Assembly: GCA_029204225.1 (NCBI GenBank)
Contig: CM055094.1
Span: 17,472,402 to 17,536,401, forward strand
Direction: 5' to 3'
Length of the DNA: 64,000 nt
Origin: Diphasiastrum complanatum
Lineage: Eukaryota > Streptophyta > Lycopodiopsida > Lycopodiales > Lycopodiaceae
Shown: piece after piece, positions 22,601-63,862 of the stretch
How the letters are laid out: every line of letters begins with the position of its first letter
Position numbering within the stretch: the stretch's first letter is position 1
Made by a program: the position numbers and the translations under genes
Notes under the pieces: generated by a model
Told to the model about the DNA's origin: nothing
The model's input: only the letters and a program-made list of their open reading frames with translations
Database searches by the model: none

Positions 22601-25600
22601 CATTGTTTTTCAAACTTTTTTTATCGCTGTTTTTTCTTAGATCTGTGGTTCATTTTCCAGCCAGCCAGTAGAAAAAATTTGTGGCACACTAGGTGTATTT
22701 AGCTGCCTCTGTGAGCAGGCTTCCATTTTTTTCAACGCTGGAAATTAGTGGGGTGTTGGATTTTCTTCAAAGGCTTGGATTGTAGGAAAGCAAGAGTCAA
22801 GTCACCAAGATCTAGTTATCAATCAATCTCCACAAGAAACAAGAGAGAAGAGGCTGGGCGCCCAACTCTAAGAGAGAGAGAGAGAGAGAGAGGCAAAACA
22901 GCAACAAGAGCAATGCTTAGCCAAACTGAAAAATGTGACACAATAAGTCAATATGTACTCTACCTACTTACCGACTGTAGGGCAACCCCAAAAGTCAAGA
23001 TAAGGCCCCTAAACCAAATTAGACCCCTAAGGACCCATGAGTCAGTATATGACCAAAATTGGGTCCAACTGAACTTAAGACAAACTTAAGATGGCCTAAA
23101 TAACTAAATACCCATGGTTACACAAATCTCGACCTTTTGGGTCAAAGTAACCTATGGATTAACTTCAGCATAGTCATTTATTTCTAACACCCTCCTTAAA
23201 TGACAATGCAAAAAAACTGAAATCTTCACTCTCCTCCATTTCCCAAAGCGCCTTATTACTCTCTCCCCATGTAATAAAACCACCACCTTGACTACTTAAT
23301 TTCAGGCCTGTCTCCATAGGTGTAGCAACTGGCTTGCAATCTTCCATCTTCAACCGCTTCAAAATCTGCCCAATGTAGCGTTCTTGAGAGATGAAAATTC
23401 CAGCCCCTTCTTGTACAAATTCAAGACCAAGATAAAAGTGCAATAGGCCTGAATTTGAGGTTTCAAAAACCATACCAAGATCAAGTATTACGGCATAAAT
23501 CTATTGCTCATTACTTCCCGTAATAATAATATCATCAACATAAAGCAAAATAATGATGATATAATCTGAAGTATGCTTGATTAGCTAGGACTATTAGTAA
23601 ACCCACGATCACAAAAGTAGGCATGTATCTTTTGATACCACATCCTCGAGACTTGCTTCAGTCCATAAAGTGCCTTCTTGAGAAGACAAACTTTATCTTC
23701 TTGGCCTTCAACCAAAAAACCATCAGATTGTTGAAGGTACACTTCCTCATTGAGATCACCATTAAGGAATGTTGTCTTTATGTCAAGTTGCCGCAAACGC
23801 CAACCAAAATGGGCGGCCAAAGAGGTTACTACCCTCACGGTAGTCATCCGAACAGTAGGAGAAAAAGTCTTCTCATAATCAATTCCCTTTTGCTGAGCAT
23901 AGCCTTTGGCAACAAGCCTTGCCTTGTACCTTTCAATGGTACCATCTGCCTTATACTTGTTTTTGTATACCCATTTAGAACCAATTGCCTTCTTCCCATG
24001 AGGAAGATCAACAAGAACCCAAATCTGGTTCTACATGAGTGAGTCATACTCATCTTGCATCGCATCCTCCCAACATTTTACTCCCTTGGCCTGCTCATAG
24101 AAAACAGGTTCTTCCGCAACATCTCCATGAGATGTAAGAGCAAAATCTGAAAAATCAGCATAGTCCACTGATTTTGTAGAGGCACGTGTCTTTCCATCAT
24201 AGAATAAACTTACTTTGTTGTCCCGCAAAGTCGACAACAGCCACCGTGGGACTGTTTTGGGCTGTCCAACAGCCATGTCTCTTCTTGCAATTTGCTGTCC
24301 AAGATCTTCCGACATTGCACTTGGCTGTCCAAGATCTTCCAAAACTGATCTTTGTTGTCCAACAGTTCCTGCAAGCTGATTATGAGCAACAATGGGTGGC
24401 TCTTGATGAACATTAGGCTCTAAACTTGATGAGGTGTTGGGCAGTTCGAAACTGGTTGATTGCTGCCCCTTATCTCCAGCAATAGAAGATGATACCTAAT
24501 CTGGAAAAACTTCAGCATTCACACTATGTGGGTTGTCCCCCTTCAAGATGTGAGTTGGGGCCACATCTAATGAATTCTTTTCATCAAAATGCACATCACG
24601 ACTAACAATAATCTTGTTAGTGCTCAAATTGAACAGCCTATAGCCTTTGCTTTCACTACTATAGCCAACAAAAATGCATTTAACTCCTTTATCCTCAAGC
24701 TTTGTACGAAGTTTATCCGAAACAAAAGCATAAGCCGTACAACCAAAAATGCGAAAGTGAGAGATTGAAGGCTTCTTCCCATACCAAAATTCATAAGGAG
24801 TTAATGCTTTCAATGCTTTAGTACGACAACGATTATGTATGCTGCCAATATAACCGCTTCAGCCCAAAACTTGTGAGGCAGCCCCTTTGGTTTGCGCATG
24901 CAACGGGCCATCTCCATAAGTGTGCGATTCTTTCGCTCGGCAACACCATTTTGTTGAGGCGTATAGTCATTTGATGTAGAATTCCCTTCTCTCGAAGAAA
25001 TCTCATCAATATTGAGAAGCTCCTCACGACGATCCTTGATCTTCATCAAGTGATTGGTCACTTGATCCCCTTCTTGCATCTTCAACAAAGAAAGCTGATT
25101 TCTGAGATACACCACTCTTGCTGGTACGCATCATGGGAGAGAAATTGGTGGAACACAATTGGATCTTCTCTAGAGATAGTATGGCAAGTACAAAGCTTTC
25201 TCCAAGCTTGGATTGCGTGACTTCATGGGATTAATGCCATATTTAATGAAATTGGGCAATGTATATGGTTTTGAGGACCCACGGAGCATTTTCTAACTTT
25301 TGGTCCATGTACTGAAGTTTGGAGGGGCCCAACTCATAATGGGGGGTCCATGGGGCAAGTGACCTTCTTCTCCAATTAGCACTTGGCTGTCCAATGCCAA
25401 GGCTTTTCATTTGCTTTTGTAACTCCTATGTAACACATGGCTCTTGGCTTTTGGATATTCCACATTGGAAACCATTGGCCTTTGGAGTTCTCTATCTCTA
25501 CTAATATAAATAGGCACCCTCAGAGGTGAGGAAGAGAATGAAGAGGCTGGAGAGACTAAAGAGAGTGGCAATGCTTATGTACATACATTCTTTGTATAGA

Positions 25601-47882: not shown

Positions 47883-47896
47883 TTTTCAGCAACTAA

Positions 47897-48588
47897 TGAA
47901 AAAATATCAAAATGTGCAAATTGTGCAAATTCAAAATTCCATTAAAATTCTAGAAATGAACTGATAGAAATCTCTCGAATGATTTGTGAACAATTTTGCG
48001 AAACTGCTAAATCACGAATAATTTCTGCTCAAGAACAATTCGTGATCCAATCAAGCTCTGCAACGAAACAAAATGAAATGAAACAAAGCGAAACTAGACA
48101 AAAGAGAATAATTCACAAAAAGATCAATCAGGCTCTATAACAAGACAAGACAAGATAAAATGAAATGAAACTATACAAAACGAAGCAAAACGAAACGAAA
48201 CTTAAGTGAGCTTTGAAATTGATTTACGCTTATAGCCAAGTGATCGCGAAGTGAAACGAAGCGAAACACGAAGTGAAAACATTCGTGAATAAAATCAGCT
48301 CCTGTGGAATTCAGATATGATTGGTAGTCACTGCTAGCTATATCATTCTTACAGTCCTCCAGAATGTAGACAGACACTGCTGATCTACGTTATTATTATA
48401 GCAATCAACAAAATCAAACCAATATGCGGAATTGAATAAACAAGTGAATCAGATACACAAATAATAGCAGACAAAAATTCATTTGAGATCATATAATCAT
48501 TCAAAATAATATGTGCATACAGCTACAATATTATCAATTGATCTTCTGATTTTTCAAGCACTGTGCGACGGACCACACAGTGCATTGG
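47897..48588 (-). repeat. LTR block, low-coordinate copy (reverse-strand copia)
   Basis: Plus-strand TGAAAAAATATC begins a block nearly identical to 62994-63676: the TGCAAATTGTGCAAATTC words, runs of GAAACGAAAC, GCTTATAGCCAAGTGATCG and TGTAGACAGACACTGC. It is the 3' LTR of the element whose gag starts at 62898. The homology breaks at GTGCATTGG (48588). Confidence 0.85.
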
Positions 48589-49333
48589 CGTGAGAGAAAT
48601 ACAGTTCTCTCACGAATAATGTCTCGCTTACTAGCGGACTTCTAGATCTGTTGATCCAACATATAAGCACAATCTTATTTGAATAGTGAAATTAAGTCTC
48701 AAATGAAAATAACAAAACTTTTATTTAAGAAATGACATTCTTGATGCTTACATTGCAAACCTTAAACAAGGCCTTGTGCACATCTACTTGTTGCCAATTG
48801 GAGTAAAATATCAGTACTATTCTACAAAGTGGAGCCATAATGACCTCCAAGAAACCTATAACTACATCCATGACCTTTGTGTATTTGAAGGATCTCTCGT
48901 CATTCAAAAAGTGAACCCGTAAGGAATGTCCGCCATACAAAGGGTGTAACATGTCTCTTTAACAAATTGGTGACCTCCTTTACATCGCATGGTTGAACAA
49001 TGTAGTGGCATGGTTGCTCATCAACATATTTGGAAATGTAAGTTTCATTTGGATCATCTTCAACAACAATGCCTCCACTTTATTCAAATCTATGCTACCT
49101 CTTCACAAAATTGTCTCGCTCACAGGCGGACATGTGTTCTGTATATTTTCATCTTTTTCGTATTATGCATCAAGCAGAAAGTATGTAGTTCGCGAACTTT
49201 TTCGTGTCGCATCATGTAACTTCCAGATTAGAAAGATTAAACATCTACAACTAATCGCGAATTACCGTGAGTGGCAGATTAGCCATGATCTAGAGTACTG
49301 CTGTTGATGTCATGGTATCTGATCAAATGCTTG
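48589..49333. other. Unmatched segment between LTR block and RNase H end
   Basis: It is absent from the equivalent position at 63676/63677. It may be the rest of the LTR (deleted in the other copy) or an insertion. It contains ACTAGCGGAC and a diverged ACAGGCGGAC copy about 480 bp apart. No gene was seen. Confidence 0.4.
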
Positions 49334-49409
49334 TACCCCTTGGTACTTGGCTAATCTTCTTGGTCGTTTGTGGAGTAAGAATGATTTTGAGTCGTGAAAC
49401 AATTTCGTG

Positions 49410-49718
49410 TCATGTGTCGCAAAATTGTTCGCAAACAATTTTGTTTCTTGTGTCTTTTATGTCAAAATCAGAGTGGAGAGCTAGCAAGGCTTTGGCAATA
49501 GAAACATTTTGTTTCTTCAGCTCCCTCTCAAAGCATGATAGCTTGACGACTCCAAGACTGCTCCTCTGTTTCTCGAATAGACCTTTGTCTAAGGCCTTTG
49601 TGAAAATGTCAACTACCATCTCCTTCATTCCAATGAAGGTAGTCTGCAACATCTTCTTCCCAATCAGATCCCTTATCAAGTGGTACTTGATTGCAATGTG
49701 TTTTGTCCTTGAGTGAAA
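49410..49718 (-). pseudogene. RNase H C-terminal part of the interrupted copia
   Basis: On the minus strand, from 49718, the frame reads FHSRTKHIAIKYHLIRDLI and VVDIFTKALDKGLFEKQRSS. This is the direct continuation of AIQLTKDHV at 58748. Joining the two restores the RNase H codons DHVFHS, which fixes the insertion point of the 9-kb block. Confidence 0.9.
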
Positions 49719-49969
49719 CCATTAGAGGAGTTCTCAATATCAAAAATACCCTTTAAGGAATGCCATGTAGGATATAGAAAAATATCAAAAAAAAAAAACA
49801 ATATTGTTTATTTGCTTGCCCACACCACTCCCAAGGCCTCTCCAACTCCCAATGATCTAAACACAGTGTCTATAGTCACAGTTAAAAACTGTTAACAGTT
49901 TGCTAAAAATAACTTACTAAACTCAAAAATATTCCCTCCATTGATTACGAAAAGGGCAATATTTTCAAT

Positions 49970-50175
49970 AGATCTAGAATATGACCGCCATCCCCAAATT
50001 CGAATCAGAAAAAATTGCAAAATGTTTACATATGCATTCCTTCCACGAGAATGGAAATATGGGTGCCATCTCCAATTATGAACGCCATCATCACTTTGGA
50101 ATGGAAATATGAGCACCAACTACCTATTGGAATGAAAAAATGGGTGGCATTTCCAAATTTGAATCAAACATACAA
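49970..50175. repeat. Degenerate subterminal repeats
   Basis: Three imperfect units of the form (GGGTG/GACC)GCCATCTCCAAATTYGAAT lie 250-450 bp from the left end of the 9-kb element, with GGAATGGAAATATG words between them. Subterminal repeats often bind transposase; that role is inference. Confidence 0.4.
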
Positions 50176-50221
50176 GCATGGAGTTTGGATTGATCGTACA
50201 TAGTATATAATATAATCAAAG

Positions 50222-52944
50222 ATGAGTGCTTTGCTTTGCTTCATAGAATCTGGTCATAGTACTTTGATGCAACTGATTACTCTATTATTTTTTTTGATGA
50301 TGACATTGTATCATCTACATGTGGATATCCCTATTGATTTGGCACCTTTGCAGAGAAGAGGAGGCAAAGGAATTCAAATATCTGCTGAGGATCGTTCTCG
50401 TTACAAGGCAGAAGGAAAAAAAAACTTGGATTTGTGGATAGATGGAACATTATATCCACAAGATCCAAGCACTTTGACACATCCCACGTTCTCTTCAATA
50501 ACTAATTTAGTTACATGGATATGCAATGGACATAGTGGATTACTAGGATATTGTGAAAGATTGCAGAACCATGGAAAACAACTTTATATGAATAAAGTTC
50601 ACTTTTTAGAAGGTGAGTTATTTCGGATATCTTCTTATTGTCAGAATAGAGATTGTCATCTCCAAAAGACATTAGAAGAAAAGGAACAACTTAAAAAAAA
50701 TAATGAATCATTACAGAAGATAACAATCAATATCAAATCAGAACTAGAGCAAATGCAATCACTCTTACAGTCTATTCGTATTGAAAACTTACAATTATTG
50801 AAGGATGTGGATTTGGCAAAGAAGAAGGCTGAAAGTAAGAAGCGAAAGCGAAGAACTTGCAAGGATATTCAAACGTTTTCAAAAGGAGGTTATCGAAATA
50901 GAAGGATCTGTGCATTCAAGTAAGCATATTCAGATTTTTGTAAGTTTTTCAATGACATTTGATTTTAATTTCAGCTATGGTGATATTCTGTTAACTATCT
51001 GTTTTTTTGTAGATTTGCATTAGTAGCTCCTCGGAATATTAAAGACAATGCTTCACTAGGAATGTCATTGGGCACAATATTGACTTGCAAATCCACTGAG
51101 CGTATCATGATGAACAATAGGATTTCAAATGTAAAGTGTAAAATAGTAGTCTTTGATGGTGGACATTCAAAAAATTTTAGATAAGACTATAGTTCAGGGT
51201 GCTTGTGATTTTGCGAGTATTAGCAGGGAAGCATATGCAACAATATTTAAACTAATTAGAGAAGCTTTTAATCAAGTTCAAATTAGAAAAGTCCCAATCT
51301 CTAGGACATATCACTTGAAGAAAGAGAGAGATACATTAAACATAGGTATGCATAAGATCATTGTAACTCCATTTCATATTGAGGAGGTGTATGAAACTGA
51401 TGGAAGATCGATATTCTATAATTCATCAAACAATTTATTTGTTGATCTAAATTACTTGTTGAGATACATCGTCACATTCTATGATATAACCTATAAAAAG
51501 GTGAATGGAAAAATAATCATAGTACTTAAGTTAGATGAGTCAAAAATTGTGAAAGGACAGAAGATGGAGAAGGTTAGTATAACTCTCATGAATGGTGCTC
51601 TATCACAAACAGAAAACCAAGAAGATTTCAGATTCAGTGTCCAGTCAGAAAATGATATATGGTGGTTGGCAGCATTTCAGGTTAACTAGCCTAATTATTA
51701 CATTACATTCATTGAATAGTATTAATACATTGTAAATTAAGTCTGATTAATTTTTTTGGACAGGTGCTAAAAGAGGATCATGATATATTATCATGGATAT
51801 TCTCAAGGACATCTTATCCTATGATCATCAAGGACCATATGGATGGAGGACTTCTCAACGTTCCAGGAGTTGGAGACTTCAATGTTGAATGGCACTTAGC
51901 AGGTGATTTGAAAACATTAAAATGTATGTATAATGTCTCTCACGGTGCTACATCAAAACACCCTTGTTTGTACTGTATGAAAATGACAAAAGATGTAACT
52001 AGGAGCACAGCAATTACTAGAGAATATGCATATCCAAACTGGAAGCCTGTGCTGCCTATCCTCTTAAAAAATGTGCATGTTTGCACTCTTCATGCAAAAG
52101 TTAGATTAATAGAAAAGATCATTTATCTTCATATAGTTTTTGCTTGGAATACTAAGCCAACATCATTAGCAAAGGAAGCTATCTCTCGATTAGAAGATGT
52201 TTTATCAAAAGCAAGACTCCATAAAGGACATGTCAAAATTCAAAAAGATGAAAAGCTTTCAGGAAAGAATGGGAACATGTCAACTAAGCCAAGCATAGGA
52301 GGAGCAAAAGCACGTCGTTTCTTATCAAATCATATTGGTAGGGCTTCTAATATTCAACACTCAGTCTAGACATATATCATTGCTGCTACTCAGGACTTCG
52401 AGAAAGACGGCAAAACCAAAGTACTAAAAGTTGATGTATGGAAAAAGCTTGATAGTATGATTGTTATTTTAAGAAAAGAAAAATACTCTGATATTGATAA
52501 AAAAGCTGTCCAAAGGACTTGTGTCGAGTTTATTAATGCAGTATCAAAAGCATGGGGAGATGATCACGTCACTCATTACATGGTTAGTATTGAATTCTTA
52601 AAATGCTTTCAGATTTTCATATATATTTAGATCCAAACATAAGACTAACATTATGATTTTGACATATGCAGCACATACTAAGAGATCATACAACATTTTT
52701 TGCAAATACATATGAAAGCTTGAGTGTATGGTCGTCGCAAGGGATGGAGAAGTCACACTGGCAAGCACGAGCAACACTTCATCGAAATACACAACATGGA
52801 GGAACCAATGAAAAACGAAACTACATTTGTCAATTGTTTCAGTGGTTCTACGACAGAGTTCAAATTCGACATATAACAAAGTCCACACAATACAACAAGT
52901 TTAAAAAAGCAGGTAAGTTCATACATGAAGAGAAAATTAGATGA
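50222..52944 (+). pseudogene. Transposase candidate of an unrecognised DDE-like family
   Basis: Five exons are inferred: 50222-50921, 51013-about 51150, 51153-51680, 51764-52582, 52672-52944, with GT-AG junctions. Exon 1 has a coiled coil (repeated Glu/Leu/Lys around 50680-50830) and a basic KKRKRRTCK stretch. Candidate catalytic acids are Asp in LKLDESK (51534), Asp in HLAGDLKTLK (51905) and Glu in SSQGMEKSHWQ (about 52750). A Cys pair in KHPCLYCMKM (about 51965) follows the second Asp. The layout of acid, hydrophobic strands, GDLK and PC..C is what I would expect of an RNase H-fold transposase, but I cannot name the family. A 1-nt frame change near 51155 and a TAG at 52367 interrupt it, so this copy is probably inactive. 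It is the first gene at the left end of the 9-kb element. Confidence 0.55.
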
Positions 52945-53078
52945 TTGTTGAGTACAAGATCATCATTATCATCAAATCATGACATGTTCAGAATTGCTTT
53001 GCAAATTCATTGAACAAGAAAGGAGAAATACTCCATGTAAATGTATTGATTGTATTATATGAACATACAAAGTGTCAA

Positions 53079-54578
53079 CTATCCATCATCAGATCTTGTG
53101 TCAGATTCTATGGCGGTATTGTCATGAAGAAATTCTCTGCTAGCGTATGCATCTAATAGATGTGCATTATTCTTATTTCCACTAAGCTCAATATAAGTGG
53201 AATACAATGAATAATGGGAGCTCCTTAAAGGAACATTCCCATCAGTAATGCCTAAAAAGTTCAAAACATAAGATCTTTTGACAAAAATGATCTTATTTCT
53301 CTTTACAAATTTATGTCCTCCTAGGTAAAATGATAAAGCTTTAACTGCCATTACAAGAGTCTCCCCGACTGGGCTCAGCTTGGAATGAGCAATACAGATC
53401 TCATTCTTTAGGAAATGCCTAAGATAGTGGCCAAGTCCACTATCCCTCTGGAAAGACGATGTGTGTTGTCTGAAACCACCTCGTCTCGCAGCAAAATCAT
53501 CTATTATGAGAGCATCCTACAATAGGAAATTTGTTAGCAAAAACACATTCAATGATTAGAAATATCGTAATGCAAAAAAGTTTAAGCACTTACACATTCT
53601 TCATCATCAACAGTAACCAGATCATGATGATCAATATAATGACCACGTACTGAACTGGAATCATCCGTGAAATGCAATAATGATGGACGAGGGAAGCCCA
53701 TCTGGGATTGAAATGCCGTGAATTCTTCATCGAATGGTTTGCCTCGCCCATCCTTAGCTATATTTGATAAAGTCTTAGTCAAGCATTCTTCACTAGTCAT
53801 AATTCTTTCCTCATCATCAAAATCAATACCAGCAACAAGATCATCTGTTTCAAAATCTACGAAGTCGGAGAATTCAAAAATTGTGTCAGATAATAAACAT
53901 AGAACCTCGTCTTCACGATAGTCAAAAAATTTACATAAATCAACATAGAATATACATCGTCATTAATATAATATACAAGCAAATTGAATATACATTTAGA
54001 ATCCTCTGTAGGGTTGGATTCATCAGCAGATGTATTTGGGCCAATAAAAGAATCCCGTAGAGAATCAGTATTTATATTTATGAAGTCACTTTCTTTATCA
54101 GGAGTGTCGATAAGAAAGTAACTGATGTCCTTAATAGCTGATTGAACGGAGGATGATAAAAAGGGAGGGTCAACAACAGAAATTTCATCATCATCTGGGA
54201 TCTGAACTAACAGGAAAAGTAAGAAACCATTCTGATATTCAACCAATCGACATTTCTTGTTGCAATAAGGATGCAGTGAACTGCTTTTGAAAAGATCAAA
54301 CAATTTGGTGAACATTCTATCTAGTCTATGTCTGAAAGTTGAGAAGAAGTGAACTTGATCAGTATAATGCATGTACTGGAGTGAACAGGCTTACTAAGTA
54401 TATCTCTGAATCTAACATAATGTTGATAAAAAATGTCAGAATTTGGTTGTGCAGTCCTAAAAACATGTAGATATGGCCTGAATAGGCTATGGAAGTAGTC
54501 CAGATTTTCAGGATTCCCAAATTCACTAAGAAATGAACTCAAATCTGAATCTTGTGAGGACCCTGAGGAAGAGGCCAT
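53079..54578 (-). pseudogene. Unknown gene of the 9-kb element (acidic protein)
   Basis: I do not recognise this product. It starts at 54578 (MASSSGSSQDSDLSSFLSEF), convergent with the transposase candidate. Well-supported parts are RPYLHVFRTAQPNSDIFYQH, then (frame change or small intron near 54360) TFRHRLDRMFTKLFDLF. An exon around 53910-53593 (EFSDFVDFETDDLVAGIDF, MGFPRPSLLHFTDDSSS) ends at a GTAAGT donor. A last exon from about 53519 (RRGGFRQHTSSFQRDSGLG, FVKRSYVLNFLGITDGNVP) ends at 53079. The middle is rich in Asp and Glu. No known domain was seen. Exon borders between 54020 and 53910 are unclear. Confidence 0.5.
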
Positions 54579-55411
54579 CGAAATAAAGTGAATATCGCAC
54601 TTGTGCACGAGGGAGACGAGAAAGAAAACTAACTACCAAGATGGCACACAAGAGAGATATGTACGACGCAAGATACCGAATATCGCACTTGAGCACAAGT
54701 AGGTGTCGTTGAGTGCAAATGATCAACAAAGCGCGCGCACAAGATCGATATGTCGCGAATTTCAATAACGGAAAAAGGTAAAAAATTAATCGGTTTGCGT
54801 GCCATTTATACTAAATTTTCACACGTGTAGTCAACGGTCAATGGACACGTGTCTACTTTCGATTCGACTACAGCTACTGGCACTTGCGACGTGACACCTA
54901 GACACGTGTAAAATGACAACTGGACACATGTTGCGTGTTCATTCGCGTGCTCAAAAACACGTGTCGCTCTATCATTTGCTCGTACAAATCTCACATGTGT
55001 AAAGTGATAGCGTGACACGTGTCGCTCTGTCATTTGTTCGTACAACTCCCACACGTGTGATTGGACATTCTTTCGTACGTGCAAACCAGGATATAAAATC
55101 ACAAACTTCGATGAATTTTTTTCACTTTTTTTTTTCGCTTCGCATATCGCACTTGTGCGCGTCCTTCACACTCGAATTTCCACCCACCGTCTTTCATGCG
55201 CACAGGTCCGATACACCTACCTACGTGTCCCCCTGTATCACACTTGTGCGTGTTTCTTCAAAACTAATTTCTTTCTATTATATTCAGCTCGCATAGGTCC
55301 GATATACCGTACGTTCCTTCCGTACATATCGGTCCTCTACGAGATTTTTATCACCCTTCCATTCTCATTCTCCCCGTCGCGCGCAAGTCCGCTATTGCAT
55401 AGTACACATCC
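54579..55411. promoter_or_regulatory. Bidirectional intergenic region with ACACGTGT palindromes
   Basis: Between two divergent genes lie six perfect ACACGTGT palindromes at 54821, 54845, 54902, 54957, 55015 and 55051, plus ACACATGT-type variants. Two 58-bp tandem units (54957 and 55015) share GTCGCTCTRTCATTTGYTCG. Further right, two degenerate repeats about 90 bp apart (55144 and 55234) share CACTTGTGCG and AGGTCCGATA. CACGTG is the G-box core bound by plant bZIP and bHLH factors. I infer promoter function or transposase binding. Confidence 0.6.
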
Positions 55412-57170
55412 ATGGATAGGAGAAAGCAAACCAGGAGGGACTTCTTCTCTCCTGGCTCATCCTTAGCCCCTGTGGTGGCCATTACCCATCCTGCTAGACA
55501 TAGAATGCGCAACCGCAGCAGGTGGCCCTCTGAGATAAGCAAGTACCAGACATCAACTGTGTTGTTGATCCCAAGGGCTCCATTCTACTGTGCTGTCCGA
55601 AACATAACAAGAAATGATCTCGGAGAGCTGGTCTAATTTACACCCAGTGCTCTTCAGTGCCTTCAGGAGGCTGCTGAAGACTACCTTAGTTTTTTTTTTG
55701 AAGATTCATTTTTGCTTGCCATTCATTTCAAGAGAGTCACAATAATGCCCAAGGATTTTCAGCTCCTGATGAGAATGAGGGTTAGGTTCCGTAGGTTGCA
55801 CGTATCTCAGCCTTCTGCTCCCAAGCCAACACCTGTAGATAGGACTGATCTTCCTACGGGGCATCCTAGAAAGCAGAGTGCCCCCAAGAGAGCTCCAAAG
55901 AAAGCAAAGATCGTAGACACCACAAATTCTGTGAAACCTGACCCAAAATCAATTGTAGATAACGATGTTGTTGATAATGCTGTAAATATAGCTACAGCTG
56001 TTTTGGATACCGCTTTAATTCCTGTAGATACTACACATCTACCTCCTCCTCCTCCTCCAAATTTTTATACATATATAGATTTGGATGAGTATCTTAGATT
56101 TGAGAAAGACATATCGGATGCTATGGATAAAATTGGTACTCCTTTTTGTTTTAGACTAGATGAACTTGATTTTAGTATTAACTTTAGAGTTTTAGATTGC
56201 TTGGATCTCAAAGACAGACGGACTTCTATCAGTGATCCTGTGATAGAGTCTGGGCTGACACTCTTGCAATTTGACATTGCAAGAGATTCATCCAACGAGT
56301 TGCTGGTGCTGAGTAACTTTTTGCTCCAGGCCTTCAAGGAGAATAATGACACATTGTCACAGTGTCTGACAAGTGGATTCACACCAGCAACAAAGTTTAT
56401 GGTCATTCCTTATCATACCAAGTAAGATATATTAAGTGCTTCTTCCTGTCTTATGCATTAACATTGACATTTTCAATTTAAATAGTTCTCAGAATTGTCG
56501 CTAAAGTACTTTCAATCTTATTTTGCAGTGACCACTGGAGTTTAAACTTGATCTCTATTAAGAGATTTGTAAATAATAGTATCAAAGGTTTTTGTGTCAA
56601 GATGAATTCGGCGAAAAATACGCATAAAAATGTAGATATATATTTGCCATATTTAAGTAAATATATTCCTACAGATGTTTCCCATTCCATGGACTGGGAG
56701 ATCGTGAGTTTGGAGGTAAACTCTATCGTTCTTAATAGCATGTTAAAATCAGTATTCTAATGTAATTGTTTCATTCTAATTCATTCTGTTTCATAACTGA
56801 TTTCCTTTGTGCTGAATTATTTTGCAGTCACCACAGCAAAATGATTCATTCAACTGTGGGTGGTACACGTTATACAATGTCAAGTTATTTTTTGAGTGGT
56901 TCAACCTTCAGGAAGATGTTGATATTTCTAAGGTAATAAATTTTGCTTATTCTTATTTTTGGAATCATGATTAATTTTCTATTTTGTTGATGTTTTTAGC
57001 CATTACTAATACATGAATGTTCTATTTTGCAGTTTACACTTCCTGAGTACACATCAAGCGAGGTGTACAGATTCAAACAAGAAATCATCCTGAGTATACT
57101 GGCTAGGGCAAGGCTTCAGCCTCCCTTTATTGATGATGGTGCAAAGGATGATGTAGTAGTACTAAATTAA
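55412..57170 (+). pseudogene. CENH3-like histone fold fused to a Ulp1/C48-type protease
   Basis: Four exons: 55412-56421, 56529-56715, 56828-56932, 57033-57170, phases 2, 0, 0, giving 479 codons with one internal TAA (codon 75). Residues about 37-125 are a histone H3-type fold: SEISKYQTSTVLLIPRAPF (alphaN/alpha1), VRNIT, then [13 protein letters not shown] (alpha2) and [16 protein letters not shown] (alpha3). LLIP-APF, VR-IT and a loop 1 one residue longer than in canonical H3 are features of plant CENH3. A basic, Pro-rich linker follows (KRAPKKAKI, six Pro near 210). The C-terminal half resembles a SUMO-specific cysteine protease: NDHWSLNLI (His339), PQQNDSFNCGWYTL (Gln403, Cys409), with Asn363 (KMNSA) where the catalytic Asp is usual. 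It could remodel or de-SUMOylate chromatin at the target; that is inference. The stop lies in loop 1. Confidence 0.72.
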
Positions 57171-57370
57171 GATCAGAACATATATAGATAGCATAGAAAA
57201 AAAATACATGTATAGAATTCATAGAAAAATATACATTTATATATCAAATGCTGCTCCATTTTATGAATTTGGGAGCACAAAATAGATGTATTGATGCCCA
57301 ACTTGGGCTTTCATTTACTGAATGAAAGAGTGTAGACACAGATTTCTACTAAAGTTTATTTGAAACTATT
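57171..57370. other. Gap between convergent genes of the 9-kb element
   Basis: AT-rich, with no features beyond the two gene ends. Confidence 0.5.
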
Positions 57371-58734
57371 GTTCTCCCACAATGGTGATTGTTGTAGGTA
57401 GATCTTTGCAGCACGTTATCAGCTCCTGTCTTTTTCGCATCTGTGACATGACAAATATTAGTGAATGTACAATTGTAAATCATGACATTGTCTATTATTT
57501 TGTTCTATTTTGACATGGCAATAAACATAAAGTACTTACGAGTCTTCCGTTGATGATAAATCTGAAATATGTTGGTAGATTGGTTTGTAATAGCATGAGC
57601 TCTGTTTTGATAAAATCAAGCTTCCAATGTTCTTCCACCTCAACCATAGTCAAATATTTCTCATTGTAGATAATGCTTATCTCCATTCGGTTTGTGTGAC
57701 CATTTAGTTCAAAGTCTTGATCCAGTGGTAGCCATGTACCTTCAATTTTCTTGTATCTCTGGTAGCTAAATGTGAGACTGAGAATTTGCTTTTCGATATG
57801 ATAACAAAAGATCATTGAGGACTTTTTAATTCTGCATTCTATGTCATTATTTGTTTTACTATCCCAGCCTTGATCCATGAGATCTGATAAAGTCTCATAT
57901 GATAAATCCTTGCAAACAAATAAAGTTGGTGTCCTACAAACACTAGCACTCGAGAAAAAATCAACAAATGTAATGAGATAAACCAACTTAGGTAAACAAT
58001 TTTCGAGCCTGTGCTTATCTTCATAGCATTTCTAATATCAATTAGTAGCTTGCATCTGAAGGATTCAAAAACAATGCTGTCAAGAGTAGGCCACTCATCA
58101 CTTTGAAAACTAGGCAATGGAATTGCTTCGAGCTTGTCAAAACCTCCATCTGTTTGTGGCGTATATAAAGATTCATAAAAATAGATACCACAATCTGCAA
58201 GTTCCTTTGGACTTCTTCCTCTGTATTGCAGCTTTCCAACATCAGAGTGAATCACGTCTAATATTCCTGCAAGTAATTGTGCGGGCTCCCATTCACTTAT
58301 CATGATGGATATAAATCTGAAAGAAAAAAAATAATATTGAAGCATTTAAATCATAATCTGAAGAGCATCAATAAAGAAAATCATCTATGATTGTTGTAGA
58401 GTGCATATGTTTTGATATACTTACAATTACATTTTTTATGATCATGAGGATTGATATCATGTACTTTGATTTCTGAATGCATATATACATGTTGTACTAA
58501 GACTTCTGATATAGATTGACCTCCCGGGGTAGACTTAAACTCCAAAATTTTTGCTTTCCAATAAGATTTGTAAGTCATTTTTGCTCTTTTCTTTTGTCGA
58601 AAATTGCCCTTTGATGATGGATGCAGCAATACCCATGAGTTCTTCATGTATTTTGTTGGCTTCCAGTTATCAGCTTCATCTTTCTCATTGTAAAGAATCA
58701 CAGAATCGATTGTAGATCTGGGTCTCCTTGCCAT
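57371..58734 (-). CDS. Unknown gene of the 9-kb element (right end)
   Basis: I do not recognise this product. A long first exon from 58734 (MARRPRSTIDSVILYNEKDE, basic GNFRQKKRAKMTYKSYWKAK) ends at a GTAAGT donor near 58425. A second block from about 58316 reads EWEPAQLLAGILDVIHSDVG, CGIYFYESLYTPQTDGGFD and VFESFRCKLLIDIRNAMK. A third (about 57955-57540) reads VEEHWKLDFIKTELMLL and TYFRFIINGRL before another GTAAGT. A last exon ends near 57371 (MRKRQELITCCKDL). The exon 1/2 phase does not fit cleanly, so a start or border may be wrong. The ATG is 13 bp from the element end, leaving no room for a promoter inside the element. Confidence 0.45.
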
Positions 58735-58747
58735 TGCTATTCTAATG

Positions 58748-62976: not shown

Positions 62977-62989
62977 GGCTCTGATACCA
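62977..62989 (-). other. Primer-binding site (tRNA-iMet type)
   Basis: On the minus strand TGGTATCAGAGCC is exact, five bases from the LTR terminus and about 80 bp before the gag ATG. Confidence 0.88.
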
Positions 62990-62993
62990 CTAA

Positions 62994-63676
62994 TGGAAAA
63001 ATATCCGAACGTGCAAATTGTGCAAATTCAAAATTTCACTAAAATTCTGGAAATGGACTGATAGAAATCTCTCGAATGATTCATGAACAATTTTGCAAAA
63101 CTGTTCTGATCATGAATAATTTCTGCTCGAGAACAATTCGTGATCTAGTCAAGCTCTGCAATGAAATGAAACAAAGCAAAACTAGACGAAAGAGAAGAAT
63201 TCACGAAAAGATCAATCAGGCTCTGTAACAAGACGAGATGAGACGAAACAAAACTATACGAAATGAAACGAAACGAAACAAAACTTAAGTGAGTTCTGAA
63301 ATTGATTTACGCTTATAGCCAAGTGATCGTGAAACGAAACGAAATGAAACACGAAGCGAAAACATTTGCGAATAAAATCAGCTCCCGTGAAATTTAGATA
63401 TGATTGTTGGTCACTGCCGGCTATATCATTCCTACAATCCTCCAGCATGTAGACAGACACTGCTGATCTACGTTATAAATTATTATAGCAGTCAATAAAA
63501 TCAAATCAATGTGCGAAATTGAATAAACAAGTGAATCAGATACATGAATAGTAGCAGACAAAAATTCATTCAAGATCGTACAATCATTCAGAAGAATATG
63601 TGCATAACAACTACAATATTATCTGTTGATCTTCTGATTTTTCAAGCACTGTGCGACGGACCACATAGTGCATTGG
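62994..63676 (-). repeat. LTR block, high-coordinate copy (5' LTR of the copia)
   Basis: Nearly identical to 47897-48588 and adjacent to the primer site. On its far side it joins not host DNA but an RNase H/3' end copy (63677-63862). Confidence 0.87.
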
Positions 63677-63862
63677 TACCCCTTGGTACTTGGATGATCT
63701 TCTTGGTCATTCGTGGAGCAAGAATGATTATGTGTCGCGAAACAATTTCGTGTCGTGTGTCGTGAAATTGTTTGCAAATAATTTTGTTTCTTGTGTCTTT
63801 TCTGTCAAAATGAGTGGAAAGTTAGCAAGGCTTTGGCAATAAAAATATTTTGTTTCTTCAGC
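63677..63862 (-). pseudogene. Copia RNase H end/3' UTR copy upstream of the 5' LTR
   Basis: It matches 49334-49521 (TACCCCTTGGTACTTGG through TTTGTTTCTTCAGC). This is sequence that belongs at the 3' end of the same element, so it implies a second, mostly lost, element in tandem sharing this LTR. 63863-64000 shows nothing recognisable. Confidence 0.8.

Follow-up and report, generated by a model that had tools for sequence, protein, structure and literature searches.

The lycophyte Diphasiastrum complanatum carries, within a DNA transposon, a spliced gene that joins a diverged histone H3 to a Ulp1-like domain. The stretch analysed here, which we call the window, is 64,000 nucleotides of contig CM055094.1. 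The splicing of the fusion is conserved among copies, the element holds four genes between terminal inverted repeats (TIRs) and has been amplified in the genome, and the fusion gene bears a signal of purifying selection. We suggest, with a probability of about one half, that this is a resident gene of a RAG1/Transib-type transposon, and that its product counters silencing or prepares chromatin for transposition.

Structure of the fusion gene

The histone H3-like/Ulp1-like fusion gene (55412..57170, + strand) was delimited by splicing, Pfam matches and comparison of copies. Its four exons (55412-56421, 56529-56715, 56828-56932 and 57033-57170, + strand) are separated by three GT..AG introns of 107, 112 and 100 nt and join into a single frame of 480 codons, which confirms both the coordinates and the content of the spliced frame proposed in the initial annotation. 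Residues 28-123 (55493..55780, +) match an H3-type histone fold (Pfam Histone, 1.3e-22), and residues 326-437, spread over exons 1-4 (56387..57041, +), match a Ulp1/C48-like region (Pfam Peptidase_C48, 7e-8) that includes the protease-type motifs DHW at 56530 and PQQ-NCG at 56828-56860 (+). In this HMM scan of the exons of the window copy, with the stop read as X, both matches lay above the curated cut-offs, which bears out the two-domain assignment. A phmmer search of the PDB returned canonical H3 as the top matches of the histone part (72 bits) and yeast Ulp1 for the second half (E=4e-4). The histone part also gave weak matches to the CENP-T and CENP-S models of Pfam, below their cut-offs, and these are taken as reflecting the common histone fold.

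The window copy is killed by an in-frame TAA (55634..55636, +) in loop 1 of the histone part, which the initial annotation did not mention; because of this stop it is a pseudogene and cannot make the protein. The open reading frames on either side of the TAA, searched separately, each match Histone (2.3e-6 and 7.9e-12), and that of exon 3 alone gives a C48 match just under the cut-off. The open copy L018 matches both models more strongly (Histone 1e-27, C48 1.1e-10).

Copies in the genome

The genome searched comprised 1.74 Gb in 5,176 contigs. A 27-base form of the TIR start, with up to two mismatches, had 2,121 matches and a histone segment with up to three mismatches had 921, against 0 for the reversed-pattern control in each case; these figures count matches rather than complete elements, and a few of the 921 could be host H3 genes (13 such were scored). 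When the joined exon 1 was used in a protein search, the histone part ran into the N-terminal part of Ulp1 in 133 of 133 scored copies. No stop interrupted the scored stretch in 32 of these copies and 101 had stops, a biased fraction because the same query was used to rank the 8,832 first-look candidates and the 133, with the window copy among them, are its top scorers. Fifteen copies, again including the window copy, were spliced by alignment, and 13 retain at least part of all four exons. Three (L038, L018 and L028) are fully open, L043 is open with its final stop missing at that place, L027, L041 and L017 are cut short, and the others have stops or frameshifts.

The single in-frame stop of the window copy is what one might expect of an assembly or splicing artefact, in which a host histone pseudogene had been joined to an unrelated Ulp1 fragment. 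However, the same join in the same order recurs in 13 of the 15 spliced copies, on several chromosomes, and in every one of the 133 scored. We regard the artefact as refuted, with a negligible chance of being correct; the alignments indicate that the fusion is more than chance or artefact. A whole-protein search found no relative at E<=0.01 among 4,153 candidates, and a partial exon 1 had no relative in viral contigs or genome contigs.

The transposon and its other genes

Twenty stretches were assigned by tblastn to two related families, seven in F1, the family of the window copy, and 13 in F2 (L009-L013, L016 and L019-L025). The window copy, delimited by its left TIR and by copy alignments, spans 49720..58747 (+) and is truncated at the right end, where about 430 bp are missing. 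The left TIR, CATTAGAGGAGTTCTCAATATCAAAAA..., is about 35 bp long (49720..49754, +) and is the same at both ends of L018 and L028; the inverted repeat is present at one end in L014, L015, L026 and L027. At the right, a TIR remnant, CATTAGA on the minus strand, occupies 58741..58747 (-), and the alignments to L015, L018, L028 and L014 end at 58741, from where those copies continue for 438-457 bp to the right TIR. Another copy at the same insertion site, L038, has its flank beginning opposite 58748, with the right flank as in the window (185 bp, 98% identical), the right repeat intact and most of ORF4 missing. L038 and the window share this right flank and are therefore duplicates of one insertion that underwent different later deletions. 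The element has inserted into the RNase H region of a copia element, whose frame is found on both sides. Direct-repeat pairs at 47892-49471 and 62989-63814, 82-94% alike, look like the LTRs of the interrupted copia element. Elsewhere in the window, ARAGORN reports a tRNA with anticodon CTA (tRNA-Pyl) at 24385-24467, which is probably a false match.

The gene order of the element is transposase (+), ORF2 (-), fusion gene (+) and ORF4 (-). ORF2 (53079..54578, -) has relatives in both families: its pieces are 76-93% identical across six F1 loci, and the L018 piece matches F2 loci (best 6e-11). No Pfam model scored over the cut-off for ORF2, the top one being a crustacean-hormone model at 7.8e-4. 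ORF2 and the fusion gene are separated by a divergent spacer (54590..55411, unstranded) that has six ACACGTGT sites, located by motif position, and also contains three TATCGCAC sites; both are possible candidates for binding sites of an element protein. ORF4 (57366..58734, -, with an approximate 5' limit) was recognised from conserved pieces in F1 and F2 loci, 67-96% identical among the former and 29-38% in the latter. Its C-terminal part (57366-57683, -) is split by an intron that is similarly placed in both families, and a profile comparison of the C terminus with ubiquitin-like folds gave 14%, against a maximum of 3.1% in 40 shuffles. The C terminus would thus weakly resemble ubiquitin-like folds, in both families. 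Nothing in ORF4 exceeded the Pfam cut-off, and its single-sequence structure model had a pLDDT of 37.

A RAG1/Transib-like transposase

The transposase gene (50216..52944, +), RAG1/Transib-like by its relatives, has a coiled-coil-like N-terminal part followed by a DDE core, and is broken in the window by a frameshift near 51170 and a TAG at 52367. Its catalytic and zinc positions, identified by motif search and spacing, extend over 51534..52749 (+), with D at 51534, D at 51905, CxxC at 51965-51976, HxxxxH from 52672 and E at 52747. C(2)C and H(3-4)H motifs between the second D and the E are given as the signature of the CMCT clade in PMC12730594. These motifs, with their spacing, are present in the window and in the relatives P0009 and P0010; under strict patterns, CxxC follows the second D in 14 of 54 relatives and HxxxxH-E is found in 3 of 54, many relatives being short. 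The 54 relatives (P0009-P0062) include one from a charophyte alga and one from a fern. A fold comparison that covered the families on the VIA list, run on P0009 in place of the broken window protein, found a RAG1-like fold. A Pfam scan of nine relatives matched no transposase family, the transposase piece had no relative in viral contigs and none in phages, and the transposase alignment had none in viral contigs or genome contigs.

The element ends are of the CA..TG type (CATTAG...CTAATG). Six of seven insertions have no target-site duplication (0-1 matching base) and L047/L048 shows TCA/TCA, the end pairs of four of the seven having been joined by orientation and end type only. We conclude that the transposase has the RAG1/Transib fold and probably belongs to the CMCT clade, which is described as comprising EnSpm/CACTA, Mirage, Chapaev, Transib, Plavaka, ESTA and Lanisha (PMC12730594). 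The window element has in common with that clade, as the same source describes it, the D-D-CxxC-HxxxxH-E arrangement, the RAG1-like fold and the CA..TG ends; it differs in the lack of a Pfam match among the nine relatives scanned and may differ in its duplications, which are expected to be 2-5 bp in the clade and are lacking in 6 of 7 insertions here. Lanisha could be the nearest relative within the clade. The transposase adds a lineage near the RAG1/Transib branch.

Taken together, the TIRs, the gene order, the 133 scored copies and the 13 of 15 spliced copies strongly support the earlier proposal that the gene is both transposon-borne and fused.

A sister family with a histone

The F2 histones are 46-51% identical to that of the window. 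In F2, ORF4 lies upstream of the histone (12 of 13 loci), an ORF2 relative follows (12 of 13; elsewhere in L024) and the transposase is downstream in 7 of 13, where the stretch reaches that far; the gene order is that of F1, and the genes for the histone and ORF2 lie in the opposite orientation. The histone of F2 contains a long insert rich in proline and ends after the fold. No Ulp1 was detected by tblastn in the 13 F2 loci, and a search for DHW or [NS]CG within 2 kb of the histone found a single SCG across the 13 loci. Since F2 spread with no detected Ulp1, the protease part seems dispensable for spread. At L009, a single open frame, 417 codons long, starts with an H3 tail, MARTKQTAR, and continues to the fold, and an H3-like KQTAR tail lies upstream in frame in 7 of 13 F2 loci, with 0-5 stops between. 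The N terminus of the window family, MDRRKQTRR, is related to MARTKQTAR of F2. This comparison suggests that the histone was already in the common ancestor of F1 and F2 and that Ulp1 was gained in one family or lost in the other.

A purifying-selection signal on both domains

When the two F1 subclades were compared with each other, the tail had a dN/dS of 0.14 and the histone fold one of 0.17; in the linker it was 0.46 and in the N-terminal part of Ulp1 0.45 (12 of 15 copies, without L039, L041 and L044). The C-terminal part, the Ulp1 core, gave 0.21 (6 of 15 copies). Within subclades the values ranged over 0.30-2.17. The tail, histone and linker gave 0.55-2.17, as expected from insertion followed by decay; the Ulp1 parts gave 0.30-0.63, so the contrast with the decay of dead copies is blurred. 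A test of neutrality on the open pair L038/L018 gave p=7e-8 for the histone and p=3e-6 for the Ulp1 region, which reject it, and p=0.09 for the linker, which does not; the pairs L038/L028 and L043/L018 agree for histone and Ulp1, with linker values of 0.06 and 0.025. All of these selection statistics are plain counts made on a small number of related copies.

Histone and Ulp1 domains alike thus bear a purifying-selection signal, which argues against passive cargo, that is, against host gene pieces that were captured and copied along without a role. The stops in 101 of 133 scored copies would fit such cargo, and there is a precedent for it in the H3 of hAT elements described from Pseudocercospora (PMC6710886). 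Nevertheless, dN/dS of 0.17 and 0.21 between subclades, the rejection of neutrality, the 32 of 133 copies that are stop-free in the scored stretch, and the presence of H3 genes with related neighbours in both F1 and F2 largely refute this explanation, which we consider very improbable.

The Ulp1-like domain

When aligned with yeast Ulp1, the domain has the His (DHW), Gln (PQQ) and Cys (NCG/SCG) positions. The position that we take to be the catalytic Asp of yeast Ulp1 is Val in all eight readable copies, in one alignment and beside a gap; Cys is kept in six of seven readable copies and is Tyr in L017. Catalysis is uncertain because the Asp position falls on Val, and the selection signal makes some function of the domain likely: it may be a binding rather than a cutting domain, or rely on a different acidic residue. 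Of the initial annotation's SUMO-protease-like domain, the C48 match and the His, Gln and Cys positions are borne out, but the Asp is doubtful in this alignment.

The doubtful catalytic triad bears on the main rival to a chromatin-access explanation, a structural role in transposition. An H3-like/H4 module might bend or package element DNA in the synaptic complex, with the Ulp1-like domain only binding protein. The selection signal on both domains fits this as well, as does the transposase, which adjoins the fusion gene in 6 of 7 F1 stretches and is inverted in one. Against it, we know of no histone requirement in RAG1-like transposases, and we consider the structural role possible, if somewhat unlikely.

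Origin of the histone part and the centromere question

The first histone tree (39 rows and 94 columns, with 10 F1 loci and 11 of 13 F2 loci beside the reference rows) joined F1 and F2 at 92/87 and placed both with three plant CENH3s at 91/77, unstarred and on long branches. With the Arabidopsis CENH3 removed, the CENH3 grouping dropped to 50/67, and the best tree grouped neither F1 nor F2 alone with CENH3, although such a grouping was not rejected (p-AU 0.33 and 0.47). Placing F1 alone with CENH3 gave p-AU of 0.10 and 0.33; grouping with canonical H3 was disfavoured and not rejected (p-AU 0.056, 0.11, 0.06 and 0.25). LLIP-APF and the longer loop 1 lean to CENH3, and plant CENH3s have LLIP and the longer loop in common with the element histone. 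The intron-free fold and the KQT-type tail lean to canonical H3: plant CENH3 genes are rich in introns, and canonical H3 shares with the element histone the H3-type fold and a tail resembling the K4 region of H3. The element histone differs from both in its long divergence, its altered C-terminal end (LMRMR) and the fused Ulp1. On this evidence we call it a diverged H3 that may derive from either CENH3 or canonical H3. The CENH3 identity assigned in the initial annotation is thus not demonstrated, given the fall from 91/77 to 50/67, the failure to reject canonical H3 and the H3-type tails; a place within canonical H3 is disfavoured but not rejected, and an exclusive grouping with CENH3 is unstable. 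A search for the host CENH3 with the Arabidopsis protein, in the best 150 of 5,531 candidates, identified no host gene: 13 matches were canonical H3 and the rest look like transposon copies.

A captured CENH3 could steer the element, or its SUMO activity, to centromeres, and LLIP-APF, the longer loop 1, the 91/77 grouping and the unrejected placement of F1 alone with CENH3 would be in keeping with this. The instability of that grouping, its long branches and the H3-type F2 tail MARTKQTAR speak against it, as does the distribution of copies. Among the first 100 TIR matches listed, all on C1, 22 were in Mb 65 and 21 in Mb 95-98. At C1 65.1-66.7 Mb (L053-L064), 12 of 12 probed flanks were 93-100% identical; two flanks probed in the Mb 95-98 cluster were 96% alike, and six other C1 flanks were all different. 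We considered insertion density as a sign of centromere targeting and rejected it, because the Mb 65 cluster, as probed, is one insertion amplified many times. F1 neighbour pairs less than 1 Mb apart numbered 17 against 8.4 expected by chance, a count made on 89 of the 133 copies (the other 44 are on small contigs or on chromosomes with no length figure), and this excess probably reflects the same amplification effect. The proposed centromere targeting therefore found no support, the listed copies being dispersed and the densest probed cluster a single amplified insertion; this dispersal speaks to insertion sites and not to protein location. We think a centromere device improbable.

Relation to known elements and possible role

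H3-like genes inside DNA transposons are already known (PMC3538342, PMC6710886). In Pyrenophora tritici-repentis, hAT elements are described as carrying an H3-like gene, H3L, that falls in neither the H3 nor the CenH3 group, together with a further ORF (PMC3538342), and Pseudocercospora fijiensis is reported to hold hundreds of RIP-inactivated H3L hAT copies (PMC6710886). Like the element studied here, these DNA transposons encode a transposase along with a diverged H3-like protein and have multiplied in the genome. They differ in their hAT transposase and, in P. fijiensis, their 8-bp duplications, and the available portions of the two reports describe no Ulp1 fusion. Neither a hAT transposase nor an 8-bp duplication was found in the window element family, which is set apart by its RAG1-like transposase, Ulp1 fusion and purifying-selection signal. 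Our literature search, which took in few subscription journals or bioRxiv preprints, found no transposon with a histone-Ulp1 fusion and no demonstrated case of a histone serving a mobile element as a functional component. Consequently, the initial annotation's remark that it knew of no such described element stands for the histone-Ulp1 fusion and needs qualifying for H3 as such, in view of the fungal hAT elements. Within the literature searched, three features appear to be new: the fusion to Ulp1, the signal of selection on the histone and Ulp1 parts, and the RAG1-like carrier.

Ulp1 domains have also been described in plant DNA transposons, in an extra gene of Vandal/MULE elements (KIU, VANC), and Vandals with KIU are reported to bring about hypomethylation of related elements (PMC13317346). 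Their transposase is of the MULE class, and no histone part is mentioned in the accessible text of that report. By analogy, we infer that VANC/KIU would be the nearest functional model for the fusion.

Under the reading that we prefer, a resident gene acting on chromatin, the H3 part would dock the fusion on chromatin, by pairing with H4 or via H3 chaperones, and the Ulp1 part would remove or bind SUMO or a SUMO-like protein there. Element silencing might then be countered, or element chromatin readied for transposition, and expression or mobility favoured. A bolder and rather unlikely version would give the element its own chromatin kit, in which a private H3 variant and a SUMO-protease-like domain mark or rewrite element nucleosomes, perhaps with ORF4 as a ubiquitin-like partner, and so escape silencing. 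Elsewhere, transposons have been found with chromatin enzymes and, in the case of fungi, with H3-like genes. With a selection signal on histone and Ulp1 alike, open copies, and an F2 family in the same genome in which no Ulp1 was detected, the question of a private histone against silencing becomes testable. The ubiquitin-like hint in ORF4, alongside a Ulp1-like partner in the same element, is worth testing, and we would put it no higher than that.
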